64,000 bases of DNA from Trichocoleus sp. FACHB-46 (GTDB lineage Bacteria > Cyanobacteriota > Cyanobacteriia > FACHB-46), in NCBI RefSeq assembly GCF_014695385.1, contig NZ_JACJOD010000006.1:682001-746000 (forward strand). Direction: 5' to 3'. The notes beneath the pieces are model-generated. The model saw nothing but the letters and a program-made list of their open reading frames with translations, searched no databases and was not told where the DNA came from. The position numbers were made by a program, and so were the translations under genes. Positions 36,929 through 51,292 of the stretch are shown here, piece by piece. Within the stretch, counting starts at the first letter, position 1. Every line of letters starts with the position of its first letter.

Positions 36929-37570
36929 ATGCAAAACGAAGAATATTTATCCTTATTGCGGCAAGGTGTTTCGCAGTGGAATCAGTGGCGAAGAGAAAAC
37001 CCTGAGATTCAGGTAGATTTAAGCAAGTTAGACCTAAGAGAAATTAGTTTGGTTCAAGCTAATCTCAGCTTTGCTAATCTCCAAGGCGCAATTCTAGAAG
37101 GAGTCAATTTAAGTGGAGCTATTTTACTCAATAGTGACCTGCGACAAGCGGATTGCAAACAAGCTAATCTCAACGGTAGCAATCTAGTAAGCGCCAATGC
37201 TCAGGGCGCTATTTTTACCCAGGCAAAATTTATGGGGGGAACCCTAGTAGACGCAGATTTCACAGGAGCTAGCCTGGAAGAAACCGATTTTAGCGGCGCT
37301 GATCTCTCTGGTGCAATTCTGAAGTCTGCTAACTTAAACAAAGCGATTCTTTGTGAAGCTAAATTGCTCAGAACGAATTTAGTGAAGGCTTGTTTAACTA
37401 AGACAGATTTTAGCTTGACCGACTTAAGAGAAGCTGATCTTAGAGGTGCTGCTGTCAGTCAAGCTGACTTTAGTGATGCCAATTGTCACGGAGCCGATCT
37501 GAGTGAAATTGATTTGAATTCCGCTAACTTTAGTAGAGCTATTTTGCCAGATCCAACCTGTCATCTCTAA
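36929..37570 (+). CDS. Pentapeptide-repeat protein A
   Basis: The 213-aa protein has an N-terminal helical leader (about 30 residues with a Trp/Asn-rich LLRQGVSQWNQWRRENPE). From about residue 35 to 205 it is a continuous right-handed beta-helix of A(N/D)LxX pentapeptides, such as LQANLSFANLQGAILEGVNL. Its function is unknown; such folds serve as protein-interaction scaffolds, and a few members mimic DNA. The leader resembles those of other cyanobacterial pentapeptide proteins. Two palindromes precede it. It is convergent with the RsbW-like gene. Confidence 0.9.
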   Translation: MQNEEYLSLLRQGVSQWNQWRRENPEIQVDLSKLDLREISLVQANLSFANLQGAILEGVNLSGAILLNSDLRQADCKQANLNGSNLVSANAQGAIFTQAKFMGGTLVDADFTGASLEETDFSGADLSGAILKSANLNKAILCEAKLLRTNLVKACLTKTDFSLTDLREADLRGAAVSQADFSDANCHGADLSEIDLNSANFSRAILPDPTCHL

Positions 37571-37616: not shown

Positions 37617-38039
37617 TTAGGATGCTTGGTAGTACTTAATCATTGATAAGCAATTACGCTGCTCATCAGTACGAACATAGCTAATTTGATCAGCAATCCG
37701 AGCGATTAGCTGTAGCCCTCTACCACTAGAGGCAGTAGGATCAAAGGTTTGCTCTCGACTTTTGAGATTTTGAATTAAATCAAAAGGTGGACCAAAATCC
37801 CAGACATAAATTTCTAGTTGTTGAGGTGTAATAGTTACATCAATCTCGACAATTGTGTCAGGTGGTAAGTTGCTATGAGCATGCTTGACCGCATTGGTAA
37901 ATCCTTCAGCTAAGGCTGTCTGACACTGAATCCAGGTTTTTCTAGGAATCGTTGGCTGATGTAACTGCTCGAACCAAAGCAGTACTTGATTGAGTTCTGC
38001 AAGATTTGTCGTTACCTGAAGGCGATTTTGTGAAGTCAC
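37617..38039 (-). CDS. RsbW-like anti-sigma-factor / Ser-Thr kinase (HATPase_c)
   Basis: This is a 140-aa GHKL ATPase of the anti-sigma regulatory type. The N-box reads CQTALAEGFTNAVKHAH, followed by VWDFGPPFDL and SSGRGLQLIARIADQISY. Such kinases phosphorylate STAS antagonists and bind a sigma factor or another output protein. The start is GTG. The STAS protein gene lies 325 bp upstream on the same strand, so the two probably form a partner-switching pair, although a separate transcript for each is likely given the intervening hairpins. Confidence 0.88.
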   Translation of the reverse strand: MTSQNRLQVTTNLAELNQVLLWFEQLHQPTIPRKTWIQCQTALAEGFTNAVKHAHSNLPPDTIVEIDVTITPQQLEIYVWDFGPPFDLIQNLKSREQTFDPTASSGRGLQLIARIADQISYVRTDEQRNCLSMIKYYQAS

Positions 38040-38364
38040 CTGGAACCTAATCTAAATAACTATTACTATAGTGAGCTAAGAAATTAAATTTCCCTTGAAA
38101 GTCTCAAGAAAAATTTAACTCATGCAGTCCCACCGTTTCTTAGCTTTGTCTTACTCAAAGGATGATAAAGCAAAATTCTCAGAGTGGAAACTCAGGTTCA
38201 TTATATTTTTGATGTACCAGAGTTGTTGTCAGATTGAAGGTAACTAAAGCTTACCCCACCCCTGATTCCTAAAAGTTGCTTCAGAGAAAACAGGGATGGA
38301 ATAAAAAGATGCTACTGCATGAAGCTGCGCTGATGAAAATATCAGCTTCTTCTCCAAATCTAAG
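38040..38364 (-). other. 325-bp gap between the STAS and RsbW-like genes
   Basis: No gene is supported. The end nearest the STAS gene holds a terminator-like structure. Read on the reverse strand, this is a GAAGCTG/CAGCTTC hairpin (38349-38321), then ATGC-loop-GCAT (38320-38309) and a T-run (38307-38303). The rest probably carries the promoter of the RsbW-like gene. Confidence 0.45.
38303..38349 (-). terminator. Terminator downstream of the STAS gene
   Basis: On the reverse strand, a 7-bp stem (38343-38349 with 38321-38327) is followed by a short 4-bp stem (38317-38320 with 38309-38312) and a run of five T (38303-38307), starting 16 bp after the STAS stop codon. Confidence 0.55.
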
Positions 38365-38691
38365 CTAGCTGGCGACCTTTTGCTCGAATGCTTCTCGGTT
38401 GGGAAAAATCTCGAACAAACTGTCCATACTGGTTAACTGAAGAATCATTTCAATCTGATCAATGATGGAGCAAAGTGCGAGCCTACCGCCTGCTTCTCGC
38501 ACGGTTTTGAGGATCATGACTAAAGCCCCTAACCCAGAACTGTCCATAAAGGTAGCTTTTTCACAGTCAATTAAAATTGTTTTTGCACCGGAGGCGATCG
38601 CATCACTCACATCTCGCCGGAGCTGATTGCCACTAATGCTATCAATTGATCCAGAAGCTTGAATTACTGTAACTTGAGAGTCCATGATCAT
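38365..38691 (-). CDS. STAS-domain anti-sigma-factor antagonist
   Basis: This is a 108-aa STAS protein of the SpoIIAA/RsbV type. The phosphorylatable Ser is in ATFMDSSGLGALVMIL, within the conserved DSSGLG loop, and the N-terminal strand VTVIQASGSID is normal. These proteins free a target from an RsbW-like kinase when dephosphorylated. The start is ATG 38691, with an alternative ATG two codons downstream. It lies 75 bp downstream of the GT2 gene on the same strand, so it may be the last gene of that operon. Confidence 0.9.
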   Translation of the reverse strand: MIMDSQVTVIQASGSIDSISGNQLRRDVSDAIASGAKTILIDCEKATFMDSSGLGALVMILKTVREAGGRLALCSIIDQIEMILQLTSMDSLFEIFPNREAFEQKVAS

Positions 38692-38766
38692 CTATCCATT
38701 CACGAATCTAGGTTTAAGTGATATTGCTCTCGCTGCTCGAAAGTAGTTAAAGCAATGCTTTAGGGC

Positions 38767-40743
38767 TTATTCAGGCTGCCAAACGGCTGCACGAATAATG
38801 ACGAGTAACAGCGCTAGGTTATAAACTGACCACGCTGCGTTAATTAGGTGAACCGCGGGGTCCTCTAATGTGCCCGTTACTAAGCGGTACAGACTCCAAA
38901 CTATACCAAGTATGGTCAGTACAAAAACAGTTAATTGCGGAATAACGAGCCCTAAATAAATGCCTGCTTGCCGCTGTTTAGGAGTAACTTGAAATCTAAT
39001 CGGACGGTTGGTGAAGACACTAACCACCGCTTGAATAAACAATGGAAAGAGAGCGATCGCGTACTGTTCAGACCGCCAAATTTCTCTAGCGGGCACGCCC
39101 CAACCCGCCACCATAAAGGTGAGGCGATTCAAAATAAATGCTGGGAAGAAGTGTATGGCAAAATCAGGGCCAAAGGATGTCACCGGAATAATGCCTGTGA
39201 AAAAGTAGATAATTGGGCAGGCAATAAATATTACAGTCGCAAAACCTGATAGATAGCTATACATAGTTTGGAAATACTGCAATCGCTGCCAGAATGTCAG
39301 CCCTGGCTTCGTGAAAGGATTTTCCCGCACCATGACTTGCATGGTTCCTTGAGCCCAACGCAATCGTTGTTTTAACGTGGAACTTAGGTCATCAGGTGCT
39401 AATCCTTCTGCCAAAACTTCGTTATGGTAGATCGACTTCCACCCATTGGCATGCAAGCGCATTGCCGTATTCATGTCTTCGGTGATGCTGTTGCTAGACA
39501 TACCACCGACCAAGTCGAAATCGCTTAACTGGCGCTCATTTTTGCTGTACTCGTTGAAGAAATGCCGCAGGCCTACATTTACCAGCGCTTCGCGTCGGAG
39601 GATGGCATTAGTGCCTGTGTAGAAGGCAGAGTTGAGGCCATCTTTACCTTGCTGGATGGGGCCATAAAATAGATTGGCTCGATGTCCGAAGGGGTCACCT
39701 GGTGGGATGTTGTAGAAATCCTGAGGCGTTTGAACGAAGGCAATGCGGTTACTGTCGTAACGGCCTGTAGCTACGTTGTAAGTGTAGAAGTAGGAGAGTA
39801 CCCGCTTCAGGAAATGGGGTTTGGGAATGTGGTCTGCATCTAAGGTAAGAATGAACTCCCCAGCAGTGCCACCCGCAAAGATAGCGTAGTTAATGTTACC
39901 CGCTTTGGCGTAGTGGGGTTTTCCAGCAGGCTTTGGCCGAGCAATGTAGCGGCACCGTAGGACTTCGCTCAGTTCTAGTTCTTTGTGATGCAGCGATTGC
40001 TCGGTTTGCTTTTCTTCGGCGGACAGGCGATCGCGCAGGCTGGAATGTCCTGGATTCAGCATCAGCGCTAGCTTCTGAAGACTTTGTAACCACCCAAATA
40101 CTAAGTTGCCCTGATTAATGGTAGATGGATCTTCGAGGAAGGCTTCGGCGGCTTGCGTGTCGGGTTCTAGTTGTTTCAGTTCTTCTAGGCGAGTAGCTAG
40201 CTGGACTCGCTCACGACTGAGGCGGGCGACTTCTTCTTGAAGTTGAGGTAGCTGTAAGTCCTCTAGAGCCAGCCGTTCAGCCATCGCTCGGATCTCTGAA
40301 GAGTTGCCATCATCCAGAATGTAAACCCGCAACTTAGTAACGGGATAGTCCATTGCTAGGGCAGCACGAGTAGTTCGCTCTACAATGTCTACCGATTCGT
40401 TGTAGCAGGTGACAAACACATCTAGGGTGGGCCAACTGGATGCAGGCATCGCCGGAGTCAACTGATCGAGTGACTTTACCTGACGGCTCAGGGGCCGCCA
40501 AAGCCCGATCGTAAACATGAGTCCGCCGATGTAGCTGTATATCTCAGCAAGTAGTAGTGGAATCGACAGCCACAGCACATCGAAATTGATCGAGTTGTTG
40601 ACCCGCCAATACAAGTACCAGGCTCCTAAAATCAGATTGATTTCAGCCAAGTACCGAAACAGAAGGGTTCTCTGCTTTAAGCGAGAACGGGTGTTACCAG
40701 AAAAGTTGGGACTGCCTTCAACGATAGAGATGGGGCTGATCAT
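38767..40743 (-). CDS. Cellulose-synthase-like family 2 glycosyltransferase
   Basis: This is a processive membrane glycosyltransferase of the BcsA/CesA type. Catalytic landmarks are intact: DVFVTCYNESVDIVERT and YILDDGNSSEIR (first Asp), LTLDADHIPKPHFLKRV (DxD), SITEDMNTAMRLH (general base) and LKQRLRWAQGTMQV (QxxRW). Transmembrane helices flank the catalytic domain, two before and about five after. There is no C-terminal PilZ domain. A helical insertion of about 95 residues with coiled-coil character lies between the first Asp and the DxD. I start at ATG 40743, giving 658 residues. DUF3131 genes lie upstream on the same strand. Confidence 0.9.
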   Translation of the reverse strand: MISPISIVEGSPNFSGNTRSRLKQRTLLFRYLAEINLILGAWYLYWRVNNSINFDVLWLSIPLLLAEIYSYIGGLMFTIGLWRPLSRQVKSLDQLTPAMPASSWPTLDVFVTCYNESVDIVERTTRAALAMDYPVTKLRVYILDDGNSSEIRAMAERLALEDLQLPQLQEEVARLSRERVQLATRLEELKQLEPDTQAAEAFLEDPSTINQGNLVFGWLQSLQKLALMLNPGHSSLRDRLSAEEKQTEQSLHHKELELSEVLRCRYIARPKPAGKPHYAKAGNINYAIFAGGTAGEFILTLDADHIPKPHFLKRVLSYFYTYNVATGRYDSNRIAFVQTPQDFYNIPPGDPFGHRANLFYGPIQQGKDGLNSAFYTGTNAILRREALVNVGLRHFFNEYSKNERQLSDFDLVGGMSSNSITEDMNTAMRLHANGWKSIYHNEVLAEGLAPDDLSSTLKQRLRWAQGTMQVMVRENPFTKPGLTFWQRLQYFQTMYSYLSGFATVIFIACPIIYFFTGIIPVTSFGPDFAIHFFPAFILNRLTFMVAGWGVPAREIWRSEQYAIALFPLFIQAVVSVFTNRPIRFQVTPKQRQAGIYLGLVIPQLTVFVLTILGIVWSLYRLVTGTLEDPAVHLINAAWSVYNLALLLVIIRAAVWQPE

Positions 40744-40806
40744 ACGAAACGACTTAGAGATTCCAGGGATGAATGACACCACAGATGGGGCGAGGAAATC
40801 GCAGAG

Positions 40807-43749
40807 CTAGAGATTGGGTTGGCGAGACTGAACCGCAGTATTGTTTGGCGCTGATGCCCAATAGGTTCCAGCTCTATCCCTCACCAGTTGGATTGCTTGC
40901 GTCGCTCTCTCAGGTAGGCCTCGCCCGGAGTCTCCTGCCGCGATCGCCTCCCACCAAGGAGATTTCGCTGATTGGGTGGGACGAATGAGCGGTTGTTGCT
41001 TGGTACTGACGTAGAGCAACGATTGCAAAATCAAGCTATTGGTACCACTGCTAAAGGCCGCGATCGTCGGTTTCCCGGTTTGCTCATAAAACCCTTCGTA
41101 GTAGCCCAGCAGCGGACTATACAAGTCTGTGACTTGCTCCCCTAGCTGACGAGCGTACTTGTTTTCTGGCAGCAAGGCGCGGAACGCAAAGGCGATCGCG
41201 GTGCTAACAATCCGCAACTCTGGAATGGCTGAACCATCATCTGCCAGCGTGGCCCAAGGCTGTTGTTTGCCTACGAGCGTGCTATGAACAATGTAGGGTT
41301 TACGGTTGATTAAAGTGGTTCCAGCGGCGGTGAAGGTGCCAGTCCGACGATAGCGTTCGGCTTGGGCTTGCAGCATGGGTTGCACCAGTTCCTTCATTTG
41401 CGGATCTAGGCCAAACTCCAAGGCATACAACACGAAGGGATCGGCGACAGTGTAAGCAGGTCTTTCTGTTTTGTTGCCAGCTTGCAACCGCTGTGTAGGC
41501 ACTGGAGCACCATCTACAGTAGCGGTTTCGTATCGACCTCCTACCGCTGAGCGATCGACCTCAAAGCCCCACAACTGAAAGCCGCGAGCAGCATATTCTT
41601 CATATCCCAGATAGTTAACGGGCTTGATTCGGGTTAACCAACGTGCAGCTCTCTGGGGTTGCTGATCTCGTGTGGTGATGGCACTAAATATCTTGCCATC
41701 TCGAATTACGCGCAGAAATGACCAATCTAGAACGGTTTGATCGACCGCCTCTGTATATTCGGGATGATAGCTTTTTAGGTTGTGTAGAGCTGCTAGAAGT
41801 CGCCCTACATCGGTTCCAGACCAGCCATTCCCTTCTGTGATTGGGTTGCCCCCATAATCTACAGGTTGCAAGGTTTTTGTGTCGTAACCTCGATAAGGAA
41901 GTTCTCCGCCAAAGAGGGAGACTTGCCTTAATGCGCCTAACAACAACCGTACTCGTTGGTCGAACTCAGAAGCAGAAACAATATCTAGCGATCGCGCTGC
42001 ATTCAGAGCTGCCAAATAATTACCCATGCCCCAGAGGGAAGCAGTTTTGAGGTCACTGCGATCGCTAACTAAGCCTGTATCTGGGTTGTAGTTGGACTTG
42101 AAATAGTTCCAAGCCGCTTCTGCATAGCGACGCTCTGCGACGGTTAGTGGTTTGACCGTTAAAGGAGGCTTGGATAGCCGAGAACCTACACTGCCGATAG
42201 CTGCAACCTTAACCGGAGGAGCAACCGCACGAGCAGTCGTAGCTGGAGGGGGAGTTTGAGCTTGAGTCGCCGGTTGCTGTGGGGTAGGTGGAGCAGCAGT
42301 TGGTTGTGGAGTGGATGGAGCAGCAGTTGGTTGTGGAGCCGCAGGGCTGGCAGCAGCAGTAGGTGGCTCTGAAGGAGTTGGTGCTGAGGGATTTGGTGCA
42401 GACTGTGCTGCTGTAGCACCACCACGGGGAGAGGCAAACGTTACATTACTGGAACCAATTAACGGACGGTTGCCACGAGCTTTGTAATACAGGATTTCTA
42501 AAATCAGCCCATTCGTATTGCCCGTCAAGACTTTATTGGGCTGCTTGGTGGTTTCATACAGACCTGCATAGAAGCCTGCATTCTCTGGATCTTTTAAGGT
42601 TTTGACCGCATCAAAGACTTTTTGAGCGTAAGCATTATCGGGGTACAGATAACGCCAGCCAAACGCGGCTTTGGTACTGATGTTGCGGAACTGAGGGAAA
42701 GCCTCATTCTTTTCGTTGATCGCAGCCCAAGGTACGCCGTTGGAATAGACGGTGTTGTAGATAAAGTAGGGAGCTTGGTCGAGATTATCCTCGGAAACGG
42801 CTGTTAGTTGACCTGTAGAGTCATAGCGACGTTTTTGAGCTTCTAGCACCCTAGCCGCATAGTCCCCTAAGACTCCTCCTAGACCAAATTCAATGCCGTC
42901 AAGGATATATGATTCACTCACGACATAGTTGTTGGCATTGGAACTTTGATAGTCACGGGTATCGACTGGAATTTGGACGCCATTGACATCAACAAACTTA
43001 AAAGGTTCTATCTCTAGAGCTTTAGCGGGCTTCAGATTCCAAAGCTCGTAGCCTCTGGCAGCATATTCCTCATACCCTAATCGTCCTTCTTGTACAGGAA
43101 GAGTTTTGCCATCCTCTAGGACTGCGGCTCCATACATCTGTTCATCTTTTATGGAGCGAGCCAACTGCCACTTAGACAGAACACCTTTTGTCCAGTCGGC
43201 GTATTGAGGATGGCAAGTCCGAATAATGTGCATGGCGGCGAGCAAACGCCCAATGTCAAGGGCAGACCAGCCAATACCCCGTTCTATGGGGTTATTACCA
43301 TAGTCTACTAAAGCCCCAGTAGCAGTGTTGTAGACTTTGTTGGGTAAGGTGTCTTCAAATAGTCTTAAGCTAGCGAGCGTCGTCAAGAACTTATTCAGAC
43401 GGGTATCAAATTCTTTTTGGTCAATCAAATTCAACCAACGAGCCGAATTCAGAGCCGTCAAGTAGTTCCCCATATCCCACAAGGTGCTAGAGGGATAATT
43501 GCCGACAGAATTCACCAATCCCGTGGCGGGCTGATAGTTCTTGACGAAGTATTGCCAAGCTGTAGTGGCGTAGGCTTGCTCTTCTGGCGTTAGAGGCACT
43601 GTGATTTCGGCACAAGCGCCACCTGTGGCAACGGGTTGCTGAGCAACTACTGGTTTGGAAAGATAAGTATTGAGCAGGAATTGAAAGCAGACCCCCACTA
43701 AAAATAGGGCGATCGCTCTAATCCATTTAGGCTGAAAAGTTCTCCGCAT
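40807..43749 (-). CDS. Double DUF3131 protein, envelope-anchored
   Basis: This 980-aa protein has a signal or anchor helix (about residues 10-30) and a first DUF3131 domain (about 45-430). A Pro/Ala/Gln/Thr-rich linker with repeated QPTAAP follows (about 440-515), then a second DUF3131 domain (about 535-950). The first domain keeps the family motifs GWSALDIGRLL, EGRLGYEEYAARG, VSESYILDGIEFG, SEDNLDQAPYFIYNT and FYAGLYETT. The second is altered at several of these. The Trp- and acid-rich helical pattern looks like an (alpha/alpha)-toroid glycan-processing fold, an inference from family likeness. I use ATG 43749 over the upstream TTG. Confidence 0.88.
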   Translation of the reverse strand: MRRTFQPKWIRAIALFLVGVCFQFLLNTYLSKPVVAQQPVATGGACAEITVPLTPEEQAYATTAWQYFVKNYQPATGLVNSVGNYPSSTLWDMGNYLTALNSARWLNLIDQKEFDTRLNKFLTTLASLRLFEDTLPNKVYNTATGALVDYGNNPIERGIGWSALDIGRLLAAMHIIRTCHPQYADWTKGVLSKWQLARSIKDEQMYGAAVLEDGKTLPVQEGRLGYEEYAARGYELWNLKPAKALEIEPFKFVDVNGVQIPVDTRDYQSSNANNYVVSESYILDGIEFGLGGVLGDYAARVLEAQKRRYDSTGQLTAVSEDNLDQAPYFIYNTVYSNGVPWAAINEKNEAFPQFRNISTKAAFGWRYLYPDNAYAQKVFDAVKTLKDPENAGFYAGLYETTKQPNKVLTGNTNGLILEILYYKARGNRPLIGSSNVTFASPRGGATAAQSAPNPSAPTPSEPPTAAASPAAPQPTAAPSTPQPTAAPPTPQQPATQAQTPPPATTARAVAPPVKVAAIGSVGSRLSKPPLTVKPLTVAERRYAEAAWNYFKSNYNPDTGLVSDRSDLKTASLWGMGNYLAALNAARSLDIVSASEFDQRVRLLLGALRQVSLFGGELPYRGYDTKTLQPVDYGGNPITEGNGWSGTDVGRLLAALHNLKSYHPEYTEAVDQTVLDWSFLRVIRDGKIFSAITTRDQQPQRAARWLTRIKPVNYLGYEEYAARGFQLWGFEVDRSAVGGRYETATVDGAPVPTQRLQAGNKTERPAYTVADPFVLYALEFGLDPQMKELVQPMLQAQAERYRRTGTFTAAGTTLINRKPYIVHSTLVGKQQPWATLADDGSAIPELRIVSTAIAFAFRALLPENKYARQLGEQVTDLYSPLLGYYEGFYEQTGKPTIAAFSSGTNSLILQSLLYVSTKQQPLIRPTQSAKSPWWEAIAAGDSGRGLPERATQAIQLVRDRAGTYWASAPNNTAVQSRQPNL

Positions 43750-43788
43750 GCTGAAAACCAAATTAGGGACGGATATGATTGCTGTGAT

Positions 43789-45255
43789 TTATGGCGTAGC
43801 TTGCACTCCTGCCCATACCGTGAGGGGTTTGCCCACTTTTCGATACAACAAACTCTCTAGTACTACCCCGTTGTTGTTGGCTGTAAGCGCTGCATTCGGT
43901 TCATTGAGCAACTCATAAAAGCCGTTGTACCAACCTTTTTCGGCTTTCATATTGGTGTTGACAAAATCGAATAGCTTTTGGGTGTAGTCGTTGTTGTAGA
44001 GGACATGCCAGCCCACTGCCGCTTTGGTGCTAAGGAAGCGGAGATGGTATTGTGATTTCTGCTCAGGGGTAATGGTTGACCAGGGTTCCCCGTTCACAAA
44101 TAAGGTGCTGTAGACAAAGTAGGGAGCGCGATCAAGGTTGTCTTCAGTGACAGCAGTGAGTTTCTTGGTGGCACGATAACGAGCCGCCTGAGCTTCAAGA
44201 ACTCGATCTGCAAAAGGCTTTGGTAATGATTGAAAGCCTGTTTCAATACCATCTAGAATGAAAGGCTCACTGAGGACATAGTTGTTGGCTTGGCTATTGG
44301 AGTAGTCTCGGCGATCGTAGGGGACTCCTTGCCCGTAGAGGTTAACGTAGGCAACTTTGGATTGATAGTCCAAGGCTTTATCAACTTTCATGCCCCAAAG
44401 TTTTAGCCCGAAAGCGGCATAATTTTCATATCCTAAACGGCCTTCCTGATTGACCTGTTCTTTGCCTTTAACTACTGCGGTGCCGTACATATCACCATCT
44501 TTGGTGAGTCGGTCAACCTTCCAGTGTTTCCAGACTGCTTCGGTCTGCTCTTGAAACTCAGGATATTTAGCGCCAATGATTTTCAGCCATATAGCCATAC
44601 GTCCGATGTCTAGGGCCGACCAGCCAATCTCCTGCCGCTTGTCTAACTGCCCATAGCCCACAGGAAGCAGCGTCTTAGCGTTGTAGACCTTGTTTGGTAG
44701 TTCGCCTTTGTAGAGAGGCATTGTTGCCAAGGTTTTCAAGCTAACGCTCATTTTGGCGTTAAATTCCGTTTCTGCAACGATGCCAAGCTCCTTAGCACTG
44801 ACTAATGCCGCTAGTGCTGCGGCTTGGTCCCACATCGTGATTGAAGCAAAACCATCTACCGCATTGACTAGTCCCGTCTTTTCATTCCAGTTGGCCTCAA
44901 AATATTTCCAGGCTGTCTGAGCGATCGCCTGTTCTTCGGGAGTCAGGCTACCTGCTCCTGCCCCTGCCGCTACATAAGGCGTTTTGACTGCTTGAAGTTG
45001 TTGCTGAGAAACAGGTGTGCCTTGCAAACTCCAGGATTTTGAATCTAGCTTTGCGATCTCTGTAGCTTCAGGTGGCAAACCCGGAGGGAGAGACGGTAAC
45101 GGTTTGGCAATCGGTTTAGGGGAGGTCACAACTTGTGGAGCTTGCCGAGAGTTACGGGACAGTGTTTCTAATCCAGCGATCGCGATGGCAGCTGTGAGAA
45201 CTCCACCTACTATTGCTAGTAACGATAATCTTTTAGAAGGAGGTTCAAAATCCAT
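43789..45255 (-). CDS. Single-domain DUF3131 protein, membrane-anchored
   Basis: The 488-aa protein has an N-terminal transmembrane helix (about residues 10-30), a Pro-rich spacer (about 40-100), and one DUF3131 domain (about 105-480). It has TSMWD-like ITMWDQAAALAALVSA, IGWSALDIGRMAIWL, EGRLGYENYAAFG, LSEPFILDGIETG, TEDNLDRAPYFVYST, STKAAVGWHVLY and FYELLNEPN. All motifs shared by the family are kept, so this copy is probably active, whatever the activity. The start is ATG. It lies 39 bp upstream of the double-DUF3131 gene and probably shares its transcript. Confidence 0.88.
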   Translation of the reverse strand: MDFEPPSKRLSLLAIVGGVLTAAIAIAGLETLSRNSRQAPQVVTSPKPIAKPLPSLPPGLPPEATEIAKLDSKSWSLQGTPVSQQQLQAVKTPYVAAGAGAGSLTPEEQAIAQTAWKYFEANWNEKTGLVNAVDGFASITMWDQAAALAALVSAKELGIVAETEFNAKMSVSLKTLATMPLYKGELPNKVYNAKTLLPVGYGQLDKRQEIGWSALDIGRMAIWLKIIGAKYPEFQEQTEAVWKHWKVDRLTKDGDMYGTAVVKGKEQVNQEGRLGYENYAAFGLKLWGMKVDKALDYQSKVAYVNLYGQGVPYDRRDYSNSQANNYVLSEPFILDGIETGFQSLPKPFADRVLEAQAARYRATKKLTAVTEDNLDRAPYFVYSTLFVNGEPWSTITPEQKSQYHLRFLSTKAAVGWHVLYNNDYTQKLFDFVNTNMKAEKGWYNGFYELLNEPNAALTANNNGVVLESLLYRKVGKPLTVWAGVQATP

Positions 45256-45418
45256 TGAGTCAAGAAGTTCAACTACAAGAATGACGTTTGTTTAAGGAAT
45301 ACAGAGATTAAGGTCGTGTAAGCGTACTATGTAATCTTCAATACTTTTTATACTTGAGGAACCTCCGCTTGGAATATACCCTATAGGAGATTTACTTAGG
45401 CTTTTAGGCTGAATCAAG

Positions 45419-46966
45419 TCAAAATTTGACCCGAAGTTGGCTGACTACCGCATCACTTTGAGCACCGCTTTCTCCTGTTTCTCGAGTAAAAATATTGCTA
45501 ACGGTATAGCCAAGATCTATCTCAATAGAGGGTGATAACTCAGCTGTGCAAAGACCTTGATAGCTGTAACCGTTGGTACTGGTATCTTTTAAGCGCTGGC
45601 CTCCCAAATTGGCAGTTAACCGACAGGTGAGAAAGTCAAAAGGCTTACCCTGCCACCCTACTTCTCCGTTGTAAACAAGAAAATTTGGGGGTGAGAAGTA
45701 GCCGCTCTGCGCTTGCATATCCTTTCTCACATTCCAAGAGAACAAGTTGGCCGCAACATGAAATTGGCCAAATTTTCGTTCTAATCGGCTAAAGGACTGT
45801 GTCTCACTGTTGCCGTCGTTATAAAGTCCTACCCGGAATGACGAAAAAAGAGTTGTTTTGCGATCGATTTGCCAAAACAAATTAGGCCCAAATCTCCAAG
45901 CAGTGATTTGGTTTTCTAACGTTCTGGCATTGGCTTTATAAGGGCCTTGTTCTAAAACTCCCGTTACTGTCAGGGAAGGCGTGAGAGGCACACTAGCTTG
46001 AGCATCTAGATTGAGGGCCGCAGGCAAACGGTTGAAGAAGTCTACACCCGCTGCCACTTGTAAAGTTGATTTGCCGACCTTTGTCTGCCAGCCAATTTGA
46101 ATGGGGATATTGGTGATGGTTTCAGTTTCTGGCTCCTCAAACGTGTTGAATCCCGTTTTGACTAGAAGGCGATCACCCTTATTACCCAGTTGAAATTGAG
46201 CGGTTGGCTCTATCCACTGATTATGTTGCCCAGATTGATCTTGGTTATCACGAAAATTGATTTGCAGATTTTCTAATTTAAAGGGATTAGACTTCTGGGA
46301 AGCTGTAACCGGTTCCGGCTCCTGTGGTGTCTCTAATGGCGCTGGTGCTGGAGGGGGTAGGGCGGGGGGTGGCAGTGGTGGAGGTGGCGGTGGCGGCGGG
46401 GGTACTCGTAATTCAGGGTTAAAGTTTTCTGGTCCTGAAGTGGCAATGTAGGTTGTCGTTGCCACGCCAGTAATAGTTTCTGGCTCAACTGCAACAGTGG
46501 GGAAGAGTAGAGCAACAGAACTAGCTAGCTGCTTGTCAGACTCTGCCAGTGCTTGATTTTCTGTCGCAGACATGATTGCCGTTTCAGAACTTAAAGCTTG
46601 CGAGTTAGGAAGACCTAAAGATTCAGGCTCTAAAGAGTTGGGTTTTTCTGGGGCGATCGCGGCATTCTCTAAGCTGGTGCTTGGGGTAGTGGCTGGCTCT
46701 AAAGATAGTGCTGAGGCAGATGAGTGCTGTGCTGGAAGTGAAGATGCCGTCTGGATGTCTGTTTCTGTAGCGGTATGGGTAGCTATTTCTGAAGTAGATT
46801 GCTCTGAGCGAGGCTGTAGTTCGGCCAAAATTGCGGAAGCTGCGGGATCTAAGGAGCTAGAAGTTGTAGCGATCGCTTGAACTCCAGTTCCTCCTAATAT
46901 CCAGATTCCTAGACTCCAAAAAGGTAATGAGGGCGATCGCAGATGTCGTGAACTTGGGAAAAACAT
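45419..46966 (-). CDS. Putative outer-membrane beta-barrel protein with proline-rich linker
   Basis: The 515-aa protein starts with a signal peptide (LPFWSLGIWILGGTGVQA). It then has a Ser/Thr/Glu-rich low-complexity region (about 35-180) and a run of prolines (about 190-225). The last 280 residues show alternating polar and hydrophobic strands (FQLGNKGDRLLVKTGFNTF, STLQVAAGVDFF, LFSSFRVGLYND). The C-terminal residue is Phe (LRVKF), typical of outer-membrane barrels. I do not recognise the family. I start at ATG 46966 (AGGAT upstream); the longer GTG frame adds only 8 residues. It is upstream of DUF3131 on the same strand. Confidence 0.75.
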   Translation of the reverse strand: MFFPSSRHLRSPSLPFWSLGIWILGGTGVQAIATTSSSLDPAASAILAELQPRSEQSTSEIATHTATETDIQTASSLPAQHSSASALSLEPATTPSTSLENAAIAPEKPNSLEPESLGLPNSQALSSETAIMSATENQALAESDKQLASSVALLFPTVAVEPETITGVATTTYIATSGPENFNPELRVPPPPPPPPPLPPPALPPPAPAPLETPQEPEPVTASQKSNPFKLENLQINFRDNQDQSGQHNQWIEPTAQFQLGNKGDRLLVKTGFNTFEEPETETITNIPIQIGWQTKVGKSTLQVAAGVDFFNRLPAALNLDAQASVPLTPSLTVTGVLEQGPYKANARTLENQITAWRFGPNLFWQIDRKTTLFSSFRVGLYNDGNSETQSFSRLERKFGQFHVAANLFSWNVRKDMQAQSGYFSPPNFLVYNGEVGWQGKPFDFLTCRLTANLGGQRLKDTSTNGYSYQGLCTAELSPSIEIDLGYTVSNIFTRETGESGAQSDAVVSQLRVKF

Positions 46967-47041
46967 GGTAATCCTATCCTGCAAACTCACTTGGAAGCCT
47001 TCCTTACAGGTTTTCTAGACATCTGCATGACGCGATTGTAA

Positions 47042-47686
47042 TTATGTTATTGAGGACTCTGATCGTTTGACGCCAAACACATTGGCTGTCTCTAAATTCG
47101 TTTCGGTGAGGTCTGCTTCCAGCAGGTTTGCTTCACGCAAATTGGCTCCATCAAAGTTGGCTCGGCGTAGATTAGCTCCGCTCAAATTGGCTTCACTCAA
47201 ATTTGCTCCTACTAAGTTAGCGGCTGTTAAATTGGCCCCGCTTAAAACTGCACCACTTAAGTTAGCTCCACTGAAGTCTACCCGAACTAAATCGGCTCCT
47301 ATCAGCAGCACTGCTCCCTTCAAGATAGTTTTTTGAAAGTTGGCTTCTGTCAGATTAGCCATACAAAGATTGGCCCCTGTCAAGTTGGCCTCCCTACAAT
47401 GCGATCGCGTTAAGTTAGCTTGACTAACATTGGCTCCATCCAAATTAGCCCCTACAAGATTGGCCCCTGTGAGGTTGGCTCCCACGAGTTTAGTGACGAT
47501 CAGATTAGCCTTGGACAAGTCTGTACCCATCAAATTGGCATTGCTGAGGTTAGCCGCCATCAAGTTTGCTCCGCTCAAATTGGCTCCAGCTAAATTCGCA
47601 CCCGTTAAATTAGCGCCTACCAAATTAATCTGACTAAAATCTCGTTGTCCGGAGTCATATTGTTTCTGGAGCGTTGCAGTATCCAT
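47042..47686 (-). CDS. Pentapeptide-repeat protein B
   Basis: This 214-aa protein is almost entirely regular A(N/D)LxG pentapeptides (GANLTGANLAGANLSGANL and so on) after a short helical leader, MDTATLQKQYDSGQRDFSQI. The fold is a right-handed quadrilateral beta-helix. It is more regular than the other pentapeptide protein at 36929-37570 and does not look like a recent copy of it. It is the first gene on the reverse strand of the glucan-like cluster, 75 bp upstream of the barrel protein. Its role is unknown. Confidence 0.9.
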   Translation of the reverse strand: MDTATLQKQYDSGQRDFSQINLVGANLTGANLAGANLSGANLMAANLSNANLMGTDLSKANLIVTKLVGANLTGANLVGANLDGANVSQANLTRSHCREANLTGANLCMANLTEANFQKTILKGAVLLIGADLVRVDFSGANLSGAVLSGANLTAANLVGANLSEANLSGANLRRANFDGANLREANLLEADLTETNLETANVFGVKRSESSIT

Positions 47687-48109
47687 AAATCCTATAATTG
47701 GCTGATTAATTGATGACTAACAAACTAGGCTGGTTGGGAAAAGAGTGGCAGCTAAATCCCGCTTCGCTTTCCACGTAGGGGCGATGGCCACTGGTAAAAT
47801 TTGAAACCCAGTTCTAGCGCTAAGATATCTTCTTTTGTTTCGCCCTTCATTGCTCCTTAAGACGGGATGTTATCAAGCTCGAAGGATGATGCATCGCTCT
47901 GCTCTAGCTGTAATGTCTTCAGATTCTTTGTCGTAGGACGGGCTGTGGTCCAAAGCTATTTTCCTCTCCGATACCAGTAGTGGTAGCAAATTCAGCAAGA
48001 GTTCAGCCATTTGATGGACGCGGAGAGACGACGGTAACCTGGATAACAAAATAGGCCTGCCTCGATCTGCATGCCTGCTCGTTCCTGGTAATTCTTCCTC
48101 CTACACTCA
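47687..48109. promoter_or_regulatory. 423-bp divergent intergenic region at the centre of the GT2/DUF3131/OpgC locus
   Basis: This separates the reverse-strand cluster (pentapeptide, barrel, DUF3131, GT2) from the forward OpgC-DUF3131 pair. Promoters for both should lie here. No open frame is supported and no repeat is obvious. Confidence 0.4.
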
Positions 48110-49291
48110 ATGTCTGATTCAGAGCTAAAGCCGATCATGGCTGATACGGCAACTCCTAATACCTACGTGTTTTCCCGCAAGCAGTGGGTTTATGACCCTA
48201 GCGTGGATGCCAAGCGAGATCTCCGCCTAGATTTTCTGCGAGGCTTAGCGATCGCATCAATGGTGATCAATCACTTGGAGAGCCGTTCTTACTTCAACAA
48301 CATCACTCAGGGGCACATCTACGCCAGTTCTGCGGAAGGATTCGTTTTTCTATCGGGCATGGTTTTGGGGTTGGTGACACGCCAGCGAATTCAAAAAATT
48401 GGCTTACCCGAAGCCATGAAAAAGCTATTAGAGCGAGCTTGGACACTGTATAAAACTAGCTTTATCCTGATGGCGACCTTAGGGCTGTTGTCAATCTTCT
48501 TTCCAGGCTGGACTCGCCCTGCTTTTGAAGCCGCTCCCGGAAGTTGGTGGCAAATTCTCTTAGCTGCTGCCACATTGCATTTAGCTCCTCCAGTAATTGA
48601 CATCTTGCAGCTCTACGTCTTGTGCCTAGTTGCCTCTCCCGGTATGTTTTGGCTGTTACGCAGAGGGCTGTGGGCACCACTTCTGGCCATTTCCTGGTCT
48701 GTGTGGAGTTTGCAGCAGTTGCATCCTTACGCACTCAGCTTCCATCCGCTCGATCGCGATCATCCTTATTTCTCCTTTGCTTCTTGGCAGATCTTGTATG
48801 TGCATGGTTTGGCCGCAGGCTACTACCGATCGCAGTTGCAACAACTCTGGGCGCGGATTCCTAAACTGCCACTGGTCACAGTTCTAGTCACGATTGTGAT
48901 TGCGGCGATGGTAGCGGCTCAGTACGACATGCAATTGGGCGTTTGGCCTGCGAATGTCTCTCAGCGAGTTCAGTGGTTGCAGTGGACTGACCGCAGTATC
49001 AACGGTCCCATTCGGTTAGTGACTTTATTGGGTTTGTTTCCTTTGCTGTACATGGTAGTCAACACATTTTGGCTCCCCCTTAATAAAGCACTAGGCAAAC
49101 TTTTGATCCCTCTAGGGCAAAACTCCCTTTATGTCTATGTAATGCATGTGCCCCTGACGGTGTTGTGGTTTATGGTTCCGGGGCTCACCACAGGGGACGC
49201 CCTAGTGACAACCCTGTTGCAGGCGATCGCGATCGGATTCTTCTGGTTCCTCATCAAAAAACAATTTCTGTTCAATGTGGTTCCTCGTTAA
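48110..49291 (+). CDS. OpgC-family membrane acyltransferase
   Basis: OpgC proteins attach succinyl groups to osmoregulated periplasmic glucans. Here the N-terminal RRLDFLRG-like RLDFLRGLAIASMVINHLES is followed by the family's HIYASSAEGFVFLSG block and about ten transmembrane helices spread over the 393 aa. The His in INHLES is the usual acyltransferase position. A glucan substrate fits the neighbouring GT2 and DUF3131 genes, but the acyl group cannot be told from sequence. It starts with ATG. The following DUF3131 gene begins 41 bp later, on the same strand. Confidence 0.88.
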   Translation: MSDSELKPIMADTATPNTYVFSRKQWVYDPSVDAKRDLRLDFLRGLAIASMVINHLESRSYFNNITQGHIYASSAEGFVFLSGMVLGLVTRQRIQKIGLPEAMKKLLERAWTLYKTSFILMATLGLLSIFFPGWTRPAFEAAPGSWWQILLAAATLHLAPPVIDILQLYVLCLVASPGMFWLLRRGLWAPLLAISWSVWSLQQLHPYALSFHPLDRDHPYFSFASWQILYVHGLAAGYYRSQLQQLWARIPKLPLVTVLVTIVIAAMVAAQYDMQLGVWPANVSQRVQWLQWTDRSINGPIRLVTLLGLFPLLYMVVNTFWLPLNKALGKLLIPLGQNSLYVYVMHVPLTVLWFMVPGLTTGDALVTTLLQAIAIGFFWFLIKKQFLFNVVPR

Positions 49292-49332
49292 ACGACCTAT
49301 CCCTCGCTAGCCTCATTATTAAAAAAGTTGTT

Positions 49333-50658
49333 ATGGAAACATCCGATCGCCGCTTCAATCTGATTCAGCAGGTTGCTCTGTGCAGTGCTATCTTTTTGGT
49401 TGCCTTTGGCGTCCACAAAGCATTAGCCTGGCGCGAAACCTCGGTTTTGCCTGTTCCCGTCACCCGACAGATTCCCCTGAGTGGCGAAGATAAAAACCTG
49501 GCTCGCAATGCTTGGCGCTATTTTGAATTAAACCGTTCCCAGACTGGACTCGTCACTTCAGCCGCAGGCTTCCCCGCGACGACGATGTGGGATGTTGCCA
49601 ATCAGTTAGCAGGGATGGTGGCAGCGCGAGAACTGGGTCTGATTTCTCTGCAAGAGTTTGATCCCTGGATGACTCAGGTTCTAGCCACCCTCCAAAAGTT
49701 GCCGCTGTATCGTAACGAGCTACCCAATAAAGCCTATAACGCTACGACTTTGGTGCCGATTGATTACGGACAACCAGAAAAACGGCAGGAGGTTGGGTTT
49801 TCGGCAGTAGAGCTGGGCAGATTGGCTCGCTGGCTAGACATCGTGGCAGTGCGCTATCCCCAACATGCAGCCGCTAGCCGAGCAGTAACCAGTCGTTGGA
49901 AGTTGGACCGACTGGTGAAGGATGGCCAGATCATGGCAGCAACCACTGCCTCTGGTAAGGAAGTTTGGCAGCCGGAAGGAACTTTGGGCTACGAGCAATA
50001 TGCAGCATACGGTTTAAGCAAGCTGGGGCTGAAACCAACTCAAGCTCTAGATGTAAAGACGCAAACTCAACTCGTCGATGTGATGAATGTGGAGGTGCCA
50101 ACCGATAAACAGGGGACGAAGCCCAACTGTGTCGTGAGTGAACCTTATGTCTTGGATGGCCTAGAAAGCGGCTTTAAAGCGCTGCCCGTAGAATATGCCG
50201 CTCGTTTACTCCAAGCTCAACAGCATCGATATCTAGCGACAAATCAACTGACGGCTTGGTCGGAAACAAACTTAGATCAGGCTCCTTGGCAGGTCCATAA
50301 CTGTGTAGTGGCTGATGGTCGTCCTTGGCAAACCGTGACACCTGGGGGAGAGGACGCGACTGCTTTTCGAGGTAGTAGTACCAAGATTGCGATCGCCTGG
50401 AATGTCTTGTTCCGTAACCGCTACACCGAGCGAACCTACAAGGGAATGCGCTGGCTGGCTGATCCCCAACAGGGAGTATTCGCTGGCTTCTACGAAGAGA
50501 GTCAACAGCCCAACCGAGCGTTGACCCTAAACACCAATGCCATTGTTTTGGAAGCATTGCTGTATAACCAGACGGCACAACCTATAGAGGAATGGGCTAG
50601 CAACTCACAAGTTGTTTCTCGGTCAACAGGTGGTTTTAGCCTGACCGACGAAAATTAG
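49333..50658 (+). CDS. DUF3131 protein paired with OpgC
   Basis: The product is 441 aa with an N-terminal membrane anchor (about residues 10-30) and one DUF3131 domain. It has AGFPATTMWDVANQLAGMVA, GFSAVELGRLARWL, EGTLGYEQYAAYG, VSEPYVLDGLESG, SETNLDQAPWQVHN, FRGSSTKIAIAWNVL and NTNAIVLEALLYN. Against other copies, the D of ALDIGR is Glu here and ED of EDNLD is ET. The start is ATG 49333; the longer frame would overlap opgC and is not credible. It is convergent with the coiled-coil gene, overlapping it by 23 bp. Confidence 0.88.
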   Translation: METSDRRFNLIQQVALCSAIFLVAFGVHKALAWRETSVLPVPVTRQIPLSGEDKNLARNAWRYFELNRSQTGLVTSAAGFPATTMWDVANQLAGMVAARELGLISLQEFDPWMTQVLATLQKLPLYRNELPNKAYNATTLVPIDYGQPEKRQEVGFSAVELGRLARWLDIVAVRYPQHAAASRAVTSRWKLDRLVKDGQIMAATTASGKEVWQPEGTLGYEQYAAYGLSKLGLKPTQALDVKTQTQLVDVMNVEVPTDKQGTKPNCVVSEPYVLDGLESGFKALPVEYAARLLQAQQHRYLATNQLTAWSETNLDQAPWQVHNCVVADGRPWQTVTPGGEDATAFRGSSTKIAIAWNVLFRNRYTERTYKGMRWLADPQQGVFAGFYEESQQPNRALTLNTNAIVLEALLYNQTAQPIEEWASNSQVVSRSTGGFSLTDEN

Positions 50659-51292
50659 AAGATTCTATGCTCGACTTTATCGTCATGTTAGATAACTTAG
50701 TCCGTGATGATAATCTCAACTCTTCAGCCAGTAGACTCACGATTTCGTCCACTTGACTAGTGAGGGTTTGAAAGACGAAATCATGATGGATCTTCCATTC
50801 CTCATGAGGTGCTTCTTTCCGAATTAAAGTGGCAAGTCTAATATCTAATCCCATGAGTGAATCTGTACAAAAGATCAGCAGAGTTTGATAGATTTCATTT
50901 GAAGTTAGGCGCGATGCTTTACTAATCTCAGGGCGGATTTTGCCGAAATACATCCAAGCCTTTTCAGCGTATTCTTCGACCGCAGCTTCGTACCTTGCTT
51001 GATCGTGATTAACTTTGTGATAGGACACGGATAGGACAAGCAGATGAAACTCCCACAATAGCTGTACTAAGGTATCTAAAAGTTGTGCTTGTGCTTCAAT
51101 AACTTTGTTTTGTCGTGTCAACTCAGCTTCAAATTCTTTCTGTTCTCTGAGTTTGCGATCGTCAATAATTTTCTGCTCTTTTAGTTTGCGCTCATCTACC
51201 TTTTTAAGAATGTAGGGCACAAGAAAGCCACTCAGGCTGGCAGTTAAAACTAGAAGAATGGCACTCTCTCGAAAATTTTGACTTAAAAGCAT
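50636..51292 (-). CDS. Membrane-anchored coiled-coil protein of unknown function
   Basis: The 218-aa protein has an N-terminal transmembrane helix (about residues 11-28), a strongly charged coiled-coil (about 30-70, KKVDERKLKEQKIIDDRKL and onwards), and a helical C-terminal domain of about 130 residues without known motifs. It starts with ATG. Its C-terminal end overlaps the DUF3131 gene on the opposite strand by 23 bp. I do not recognise a family, and nothing indicates a link to the glucan-like cluster. Confidence 0.65.
   Translation of the reverse strand: MLLSQNFRESAILLVLTASLSGFLVPYILKKVDERKLKEQKIIDDRKLREQKEFEAELTRQNKVIEAQAQLLDTLVQLLWEFHLLVLSVSYHKVNHDQARYEAAVEEYAEKAWMYFGKIRPEISKASRLTSNEIYQTLLIFCTDSLMGLDIRLATLIRKEAPHEEWKIHHDFVFQTLTSQVDEIVSLLAEELRLSSRTKLSNMTIKSSIESSNFRRSG

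Follow-up and report, generated by a model that had tools for sequence, protein, structure and literature searches.

What is built by a locus in which a cellulose-synthase-like glycosyltransferase of family GT2 lies among DUF3131 genes, an OpgC-family acyltransferase, a putative outer-membrane barrel and an STAS/RsbW pair? We addressed this question for such a locus of Trichocoleus sp. FACHB-46, contained in a stretch of 64,000 nucleotides (here termed the window) of its 6.56-Mb genome. We are moderately confident that this gene set specifies a synthase-dependent exopolysaccharide system, of the same kind as those for cellulose (bcs) and poly-N-acetylglucosamine (pga), by which a glucan would be made, trimmed, acylated and exported, with partner switching as a possible control. 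The set is present in several phyla and is not described as a system in the literature that we searched. The members listed in an earlier note on this DNA, namely the GT2 devoid of PilZ, four DUF3131 domains, OpgC, the protein with signal peptide, proline linker and barrel, and the STAS/RsbW pair, are all present with their family matches, as follows:

37617-38039, minus strand: RsbW-type serine kinase (anti-sigma-like HATPase) of 140 residues, a partner-switching member (PF13581, 1.1e-22)
38365-38691, minus strand: STAS protein of 108 residues, directly downstream of the GT2 gene, with the phosphorylatable motif MDSSGLG intact (PF01740, 1.5e-20)
38767-40782, minus strand: BcsA-like processive GT2 of 671 residues, with a short C-terminal tail and no PilZ (PF03552, 3.1e-35)
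39958-40275, minus strand: insertion of helical-looking sequence between DDG and KAGN in the GT-A domain of this GT2, about 105 residues long (approximate boundaries)
40807-43761, minus strand: secreted two-domain DUF3131 protein of 984 residues with a signal peptide (PF11329, 1022 bits over two stretches) and a proline-rich linker between its domains at 42475-43572 and 41002-42126
43789-45255, minus strand: one-domain DUF3131 protein of 488 residues with an N-terminal membrane anchor (domain 43834-44925; PF11329, 518 bits)
45419-46990, minus strand: barrel protein with a signal peptide, a proline-rich linker and a predicted 16-stranded outer-membrane barrel in its last 290 residues or so
48110-49291, plus strand: OpgC-family acyltransferase of 393 residues (PF10129, 2.3e-50)
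49333-50658, plus strand: third DUF3131 protein, membrane-anchored, with one domain at 49498-50574 (PF11329, 428 bits)
36929-37570 and 47042-47686: two pentapeptide-repeat proteins, which flank and interrupt the locus

On the minus strand, the order of transcription is barrel, one-domain DUF3131, two-domain DUF3131, GT2, STAS and RsbW-type kinase. The gaps between the two DUF3131 genes (27 bp), between the two-domain DUF3131 gene and the GT2 gene (24 bp), and between the latter and the STAS gene (75 bp) are short, which suggests a single transcript from the DUF3131 genes to STAS; a scan for promoters and terminators yielded no more sites than did shuffled sequences. On the plus strand, opgC is followed 41 bp on by the third DUF3131 gene, whose start at 49165 was replaced by the ATG at 49333, by inspection the most likely start codon, so that the two genes do not overlap. 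The four DUF3131 domains, carried by three proteins, are all those that a genome-wide search recovered. Two sets of neighbours were considered as members and rejected: the pentapeptide-repeat proteins, which the earlier note had counted with the set, have no counterpart in the 20 cyanobacterial loci compared and are thus bystanders, and a convergent open reading frame of 218 residues (50636-51292) is likewise without counterpart in 20 related loci.

Conservation of the gene set

Conservation was assessed in 292 cyanobacterial genomes, in which membership of the GT2 subfamily was called at an E value below 1e-120 and DUF3131 was counted when full-length. The GT2 subfamily was present in 16 genomes and DUF3131 in 16, with 15 genomes harboring both (15 of the 17 having either; P ~5e-23 by the hypergeometric test, which ignores shared ancestry). 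The two exceptions are a fragmented genome (G035) and one with a partial GT2 match (G131). A further genome (G191) has both even though some 3 Mb separate its GT2 gene from the DUF3131 genes. Gene order was compared in 29 named cyanobacterial loci, retrieved by DUF3131 alone and selected for a multi-domain DUF3131 gene with at least 5 kb of flank on each side. GT2 occurred in 27 of these loci, and STAS and the response-regulator/PP2C phosphatase in 21 each. The order that recurs, with rearrangements, is barrel, DUF3131, a variable number of further DUF3131 domains, GT2, STAS, phosphatase and kinase, and relatives likewise pair opgC with the third DUF3131 gene. Given this co-occurrence and synteny, the genes form a real conserved set and not a chance cluster; the loss of gene order in related genomes, which the earlier note had named as the outcome that would speak against it, was not seen.

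Outside the cyanobacteria, Gammaproteobacteria, Alphaproteobacteria and a Myxococcota bin again combine the GT2 and the DUF3131 proteins with the acyltransferase, barrel candidates and the partner-switching trio (RsbW kinase, STAS and PP2C phosphatase). A Salmonella plasmid carries the kinase, STAS, a fused response regulator/phosphatase, a small barrel-like protein, opgC, GT2, three DUF3131 genes, a hybrid kinase and a GH2 enzyme. The Paracoccus locus consists of opgC, a SpoIIE phosphatase, GT2, three DUF3131 genes, a protein combining tetratricopeptide repeats (TPR) with a PgaA-like barrel, the kinase, STAS and two GH16 enzymes, while that of the Rhodobacteraceae strain SC52 contains the phosphatase, STAS, the kinase, a response-regulator protein, DUF3131, the acyltransferase, GT2, a further DUF3131 and a protein with signal peptide, proline linker and barrel-like end. 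The set also recurs in Pantoea and Vibrio, and for Klebsiella pneumoniae a 2026 paper gives it as an accessory block, 'block 3b', and offers no interpretation of it (PMC12974863). The enterobacterial GT2 gene had no match in the E. coli genomes searched. A tally of 29 of 299 Pseudomonadota overstates the system, as the DUF3131 Pfam model also weakly matches several open reading frames of about 2870 residues in this phylum, which have the size of cyclic glucan synthases, resemble them and are not members; about 16 have a clear DUF3131.

A second, more distant architecture was observed at five loci, in which DUF3131 ends a protein of 815 to 945 residues beside a GT2, without OpgC or STAS/RsbW; in a Sulfitobacter example, a protein of 1149 residues combining polysaccharide deacetylase and GT2 adjoins the DUF3131 gene. 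Within the literature searched, just three papers name DUF3131. Our literature searches found no paper joining OpgC, cellulose synthase and anti-sigma factor antagonist, and none joining cyanobacteria, cellulose synthase and partner switching. A Burkholderia glumae paper on SpoIIE and cellulose was discarded as a precedent, as it concerns cyclic di-GMP (c-di-GMP) and bcsB and not this set.

Synthase, DUF3131 fold and export barrel

The window GT2 displays the motifs DDG, DAD, TED and QRLRW and the gating loop FQVTPK, corresponding to the D,D,D,QxxRW and FxVTxK of BcsA-type enzymes. PilZ was absent from it and from eight DUF3131-linked GT2s, and was detected in the E. coli BcsA used as control. 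Its closest curated model is the bacterial cellulose synthase TIGR03030 (328 bits; cut-off 699), with much lower scores against PgaC (72 bits; cut-off 422) and the OpgH models (at most 37 bits; cut-offs at least 419). The DUF3131-linked GT2s form one clade (100/100 support) outside the BcsA and the CrdS/BgsA-like references, in a tree whose long branches call for caution. A previous tree also contained PgaC, OpgH and a short GT2 of Leptolyngbya; in it, PgaC was placed among the cyanobacterial members with a very long branch, which was taken as an artefact, and the tree was rebuilt without these sequences. The GT-A insertion is typical of the cyanobacterial GT2s, at about 105 residues or, in three of them, about 245, and is absent from the BcsA, CrdS and BgsA-like references and from the proteobacterial members; the DDG-KAGN spacing is accordingly 134-151 or 274-277 in the former and 29-48 in the latter two groups. 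Beyond the gating loop, the window GT2 has 73 residues as against 203 in the BgsA-like reference, a tail too short for a c-di-GMP domain of the BgsA type. The single BcsB of the genome (C6:462809-464572) lies beside a second BcsA-like gene some 257 kb away, and as this pair (C6:462809-466723) is separate and distant, the window locus is not the cellulose operon of the host.

When a single DUF3131 sequence was compared with the PDB, only a chance-level match was obtained and a profile search was needed; the profile matched the GH189 structure 8wy1 at 2.9e-4. The AlphaFold model of the 488-residue protein (predicted local distance difference test, pLDDT, 95.7) has the (alpha/alpha)6 fold of the SGL superfamily, and its 20 best PDB fold matches all belong to that superfamily (GH144, GH162, GH189, GH192, GH194 and related 'glucoamylases'), at sequence identities of 9 to 14 percent. 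Among 32 aligned DUF3131 sequences, domain position 106 is acidic in all, E167 is kept in 31 and E228 in all; the four window domains retain both the acidic position 106 and Glu167, which in the 488-residue protein are D216 and E277, the candidate catalytic residues. In this clan, XcSGL E239/TiCGSCy E1356 is the general-acid Glu, CpSGL E142 marks the candidate general-base position, and F286 and Y367 of XcSGL are defining residues. Position 106 is aligned by the profile to the Asp of the GH144-like STID motif and of the cyclic-glucan-synthase VDSGN, and its equation with CpSGL E142 rests on spacing. Counted from the start of the domain, E167 lies about as far in as the Glu of the YNE motif in GH144-like sequences, but the profile alignment does not pair the two residue by residue. 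Modelling thus places DUF3131 within the beta-1,2-glucanase/cyclic-glucan-synthase (SGL) superfamily, with the candidate catalytic acids kept. From these conserved acids, and because published work on the clan mechanism reports a comparable spacing of the general acid and a candidate general base (PMC12102758), we infer that DUF3131 is an active glycan-cleaving or glycan-transferring enzyme in which the two acids are the putative catalytic pair. Domains of unknown function go unmentioned in that 2025 paper on the superfamily.

The predicted barrel has 16 strands, and in the PDB it most resembles PgaA, BcsC and PelB, above all PgaA 4y25 (TM-score 0.81 by target). The BCSC_C model was matched by 20 of 33 barrel orthologues (best 1.4e-6). 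The window protein lacks an N-terminal TPR superhelix and has a signal peptide and a proline linker in its place; the apparent SC52 counterpart has the same layout, with signal peptide, proline-rich stretch and barrel-like end, and outer-membrane barrel candidates occur in several other lineages. On this modelling, the barrel is an exopolysaccharide porin of the PgaA/BcsC type without TPRs, and as such it points to a polymer that is probably exported rather than periplasmic. The structure predictions that the earlier note had proposed for DUF3131 and the barrel thus gave an SGL fold for the one and a PgaA/BcsC/PelB-like fold for the other. Its claim that BcsB, BcsC and OpgG are missing holds in that there is no BcsB at the locus and no OpgG in the genome (no PF04349 match), and fails in part for BcsC, to which the barrel is related by BCSC_C matches and fold. 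As a separate observation, the sole BCSC_C-like match in the genome, a weak one, is the window barrel, with none assigned to the distant bcsB-bcsA pair.

Nature of the polymer and its control

The sole clue to what the polymer might be comes from accessory hydrolases of related loci. Four cyanobacterial loci encode a secreted GH26-like protein, just below the Pfam cut-off, whose best match is 'Endoglucanase H' (5.8e-15; mannanases, 0.013), the lichenase known as CtLic26A; these proteins probably represent a lichenase-type family in cyanobacteria. A Vibrio GH16 enzyme with the motif NEIDIEF best matches 1,3-1,4-beta-glucanases (1.3e-33), as does one of the Paracoccus GH16 enzymes. Two unrelated families of lichenase-type specificity in separate lineages argue for a beta-1,3/1,4-glucan. 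From such sequence comparisons, we regard it as likely that the polymer is a glucan, and only tentatively assign it a beta-1,3/1,4 linkage.

In the system that we propose, a nucleotide sugar, probably UDP-glucose, would be the substrate from which the GT2 builds a beta-linked glucan, which the enzyme would thread through its own membrane channel; the DUF3131 proteins would trim the polymer and OpgC would acylate it, before it leaves through the 16-stranded PgaA/BcsC-type porin. The RsbW kinase, STAS and a PP2C phosphatase, the latter unlinked in this genome and linked in relatives, would switch production on and off, either by the action of STAS on the synthase machinery or through expression.

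Several observations weigh against this proposal. The solved relatives of DUF3131 have beta-1,2-glucan as their substrate, while the accessory hydrolases hint at beta-1,3/1,4 linkages. OpgC is found in only 2 of the 29 cyanobacterial loci, the window locus is without the PP2C (SpoIIE) phosphatase that 21 of them possess, and the window barrel alone matches BCSC_C below the cut-off (E 0.03-0.07). The proteobacterial GT2s (L132-L136) have QRFKY or QRYKY for QxxRW and SED for TED, with DxD kept, which is unusual among processive GT2s, so that the product may differ between lineages. Finally, a plain glucan needs neither the GH2 enzyme of the enterobacterial and Myxococcota loci nor the PIG-L/LmbE-type deacetylase whose gene separates GT2 from STAS in several Nostoc loci, and ExoK, which acts on succinoglycan, belongs to the same GH16 group, making a heteropolysaccharide possible.

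These last points lead to the alternative that the exopolysaccharide system stands and the word 'glucan' is wrong, the polymer being a heteropolysaccharide or containing, for example, N-acetylglucosamine or side sugars. The GH2 and PIG-L-type enzymes, together with a nucleotidyltransferase of the Vibrio locus, speak for it; all three are, however, lineage-specific, the deacetylase scores far below the cut-off of the bacillithiol deacetylase models, and independent lineages have beta-1,3/1,4-glucanase-like enzymes. We therefore consider this alternative improbable. Still less credence is due to a periplasmic glucan of the osmoregulated (OPG) type, which would fit the OpgC homologue and the assignment of a DUF3131 gene cluster of Shewanella to a salt-shock module (PMC8371737): the window has an exopolysaccharide-type barrel and other lineages have barrel candidates, the genome lacks OpgG, and the GT2 falls outside the OpgH family. 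About as remote is a variant cellulose system making ordinary beta-1,4-glucan. It would account for TIGR03030 being the closest curated model, for the BcsA motifs, gating loop included, and for the BcsC-like barrel, but not for the low TIGR03030 score, the lack of PilZ, the position of the GT2 outside the BcsA clade, the lack of BcsB at the locus and its presence in a pair elsewhere, or the linked hydrolases, which are lichenase-like and not GH8 cellulases. The undescribed glucan-type system of the earlier note is well supported by the conservation of the set across phyla, the place of DUF3131 in a glucan-active hydrolase superfamily, the exopolysaccharide type of the porin and the beta-glucanase-like enzymes of relatives, and is to be amended in that the product is probably exported and not periplasmic as in OPG systems.

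As to control, on sequence grounds the STAS/RsbW pair is a member of the set, and the window kinase is accompanied by a STAS with its phosphorylatable Ser. In SC52, Pantoea, Salmonella and Vibrio, the genes for phosphatase, STAS and kinase stand together with that for the synthase; they are also linked to the set in cyanobacteria. A full related trio of RsbW, response-regulator-SpoIIE and STAS, away from any polysaccharide gene, is found elsewhere in the genome at G000:C30 ~304400-306600 (L146 8417-10553), and compared with the window STAS, its STAS is nearer to some of those linked to GT2 in relatives. This type of phosphatase occurs in 86 of the 292 cyanobacterial genomes, and a second copy is present in most of those that harbor the polysaccharide set, so the window pair may borrow the distant phosphatase. 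RsbW and STAS families are classically anti-sigma and anti-anti-sigma factors, and the pair could thus be a conventional switch acting on transcription only, standing beside its target operon by chance. For the regulatory step, this is a quite possible if somewhat doubtful explanation: no sigma-factor gene is present among the annotated genes of the Salmonella, Pantoea, Paracoccus and SC52 loci, and STAS outputs without a known sigma target are on record in polysaccharide or development control (SypA of Vibrio fischeri, PMC4517449; HmpV of Nostoc, PMC6495340). The idea that STAS gates the PilZ-less synthase directly has its appeal, and such gating may occur. Taken to its full extent, the idea would be that in a widespread class of exopolysaccharide machines such direct partner switching has replaced c-di-GMP control, unphosphorylated STAS binding the GT2 (in cyanobacteria perhaps at the insertion) and thereby opening it, and that DUF3131 is a new family of glycoside hydrolases or transglycosylases acting on a beta-1,3/1,4-type glucan; as a whole, we find this version rather unlikely.

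If the exopolysaccharide reading is true, it would add a conserved and often plasmid-borne system to the synthase-dependent machines for cellulose, poly-N-acetylglucosamine, Pel and alginate, give DUF3131 a function, and provide a testable case of a cellulose-synthase-like enzyme under a Ser-phosphorylation switch and not c-di-GMP. As the set belongs both to cyanobacteria and to the accessory genes of Klebsiella, Salmonella, Pantoea and Vibrio, working it out could account for a so far overlooked portion of many surface-polymer repertoires.

Comparison with known systems

With the enzymes of the SGL superfamily (GH144, GH162, GH189, GH192-194; PMC12102758, PMC10834661), DUF3131 shares the fold, and it has candidate acids near the general-acid and general-base positions, but it is far removed in sequence, and its activity is a prediction. 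OPG systems (OpgGH, OpgC) have an OpgC-family acyltransferase in common with the locus, which differs in having no OpgG or OpgH and in the predicted export of its polymer. The SypA/SypE and HmpU-V-W switches resemble the window pair in that a kinase and a phosphatase act through STAS as their output, with a link to polysaccharide production or development; to our knowledge, neither stands beside a PilZ-less cellulose-synthase-like enzyme. The Sinorhizobium mixed-linkage glucan synthase BgsA/BgsB and the curdlan synthase CrdS are, like the window enzyme, BcsA-like GT2s without PilZ, with a possible beta-1,3/1,4 product in common, but an HlyD-type partner lies beside these references and the window GT2 belongs to a separate clade; BgsA senses c-di-GMP via a C-terminal domain of 139 residues (PMC5567048). 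The barrel fold is closest to PgaA of the PgaABCD system, from which the locus departs by a GT2 that is not PgaC-like and by other accessory enzymes; no PgaB-like deacetylase was identified. The bcs system (BcsA-BcsB-BcsZ-BcsC) differs in its PilZ domain, its BcsB, the TPRs of its porin and its GH8 enzyme BcsZ, in place of which the locus has DUF3131 proteins, and it lacks the OpgC, the partner switch and the separate GT2 clade seen here; what the two have in common is a processive BcsA-like GT2 with a gating loop, a periplasmic (alpha/alpha)6 protein of hydrolase type and a 16-stranded outer-membrane porin.

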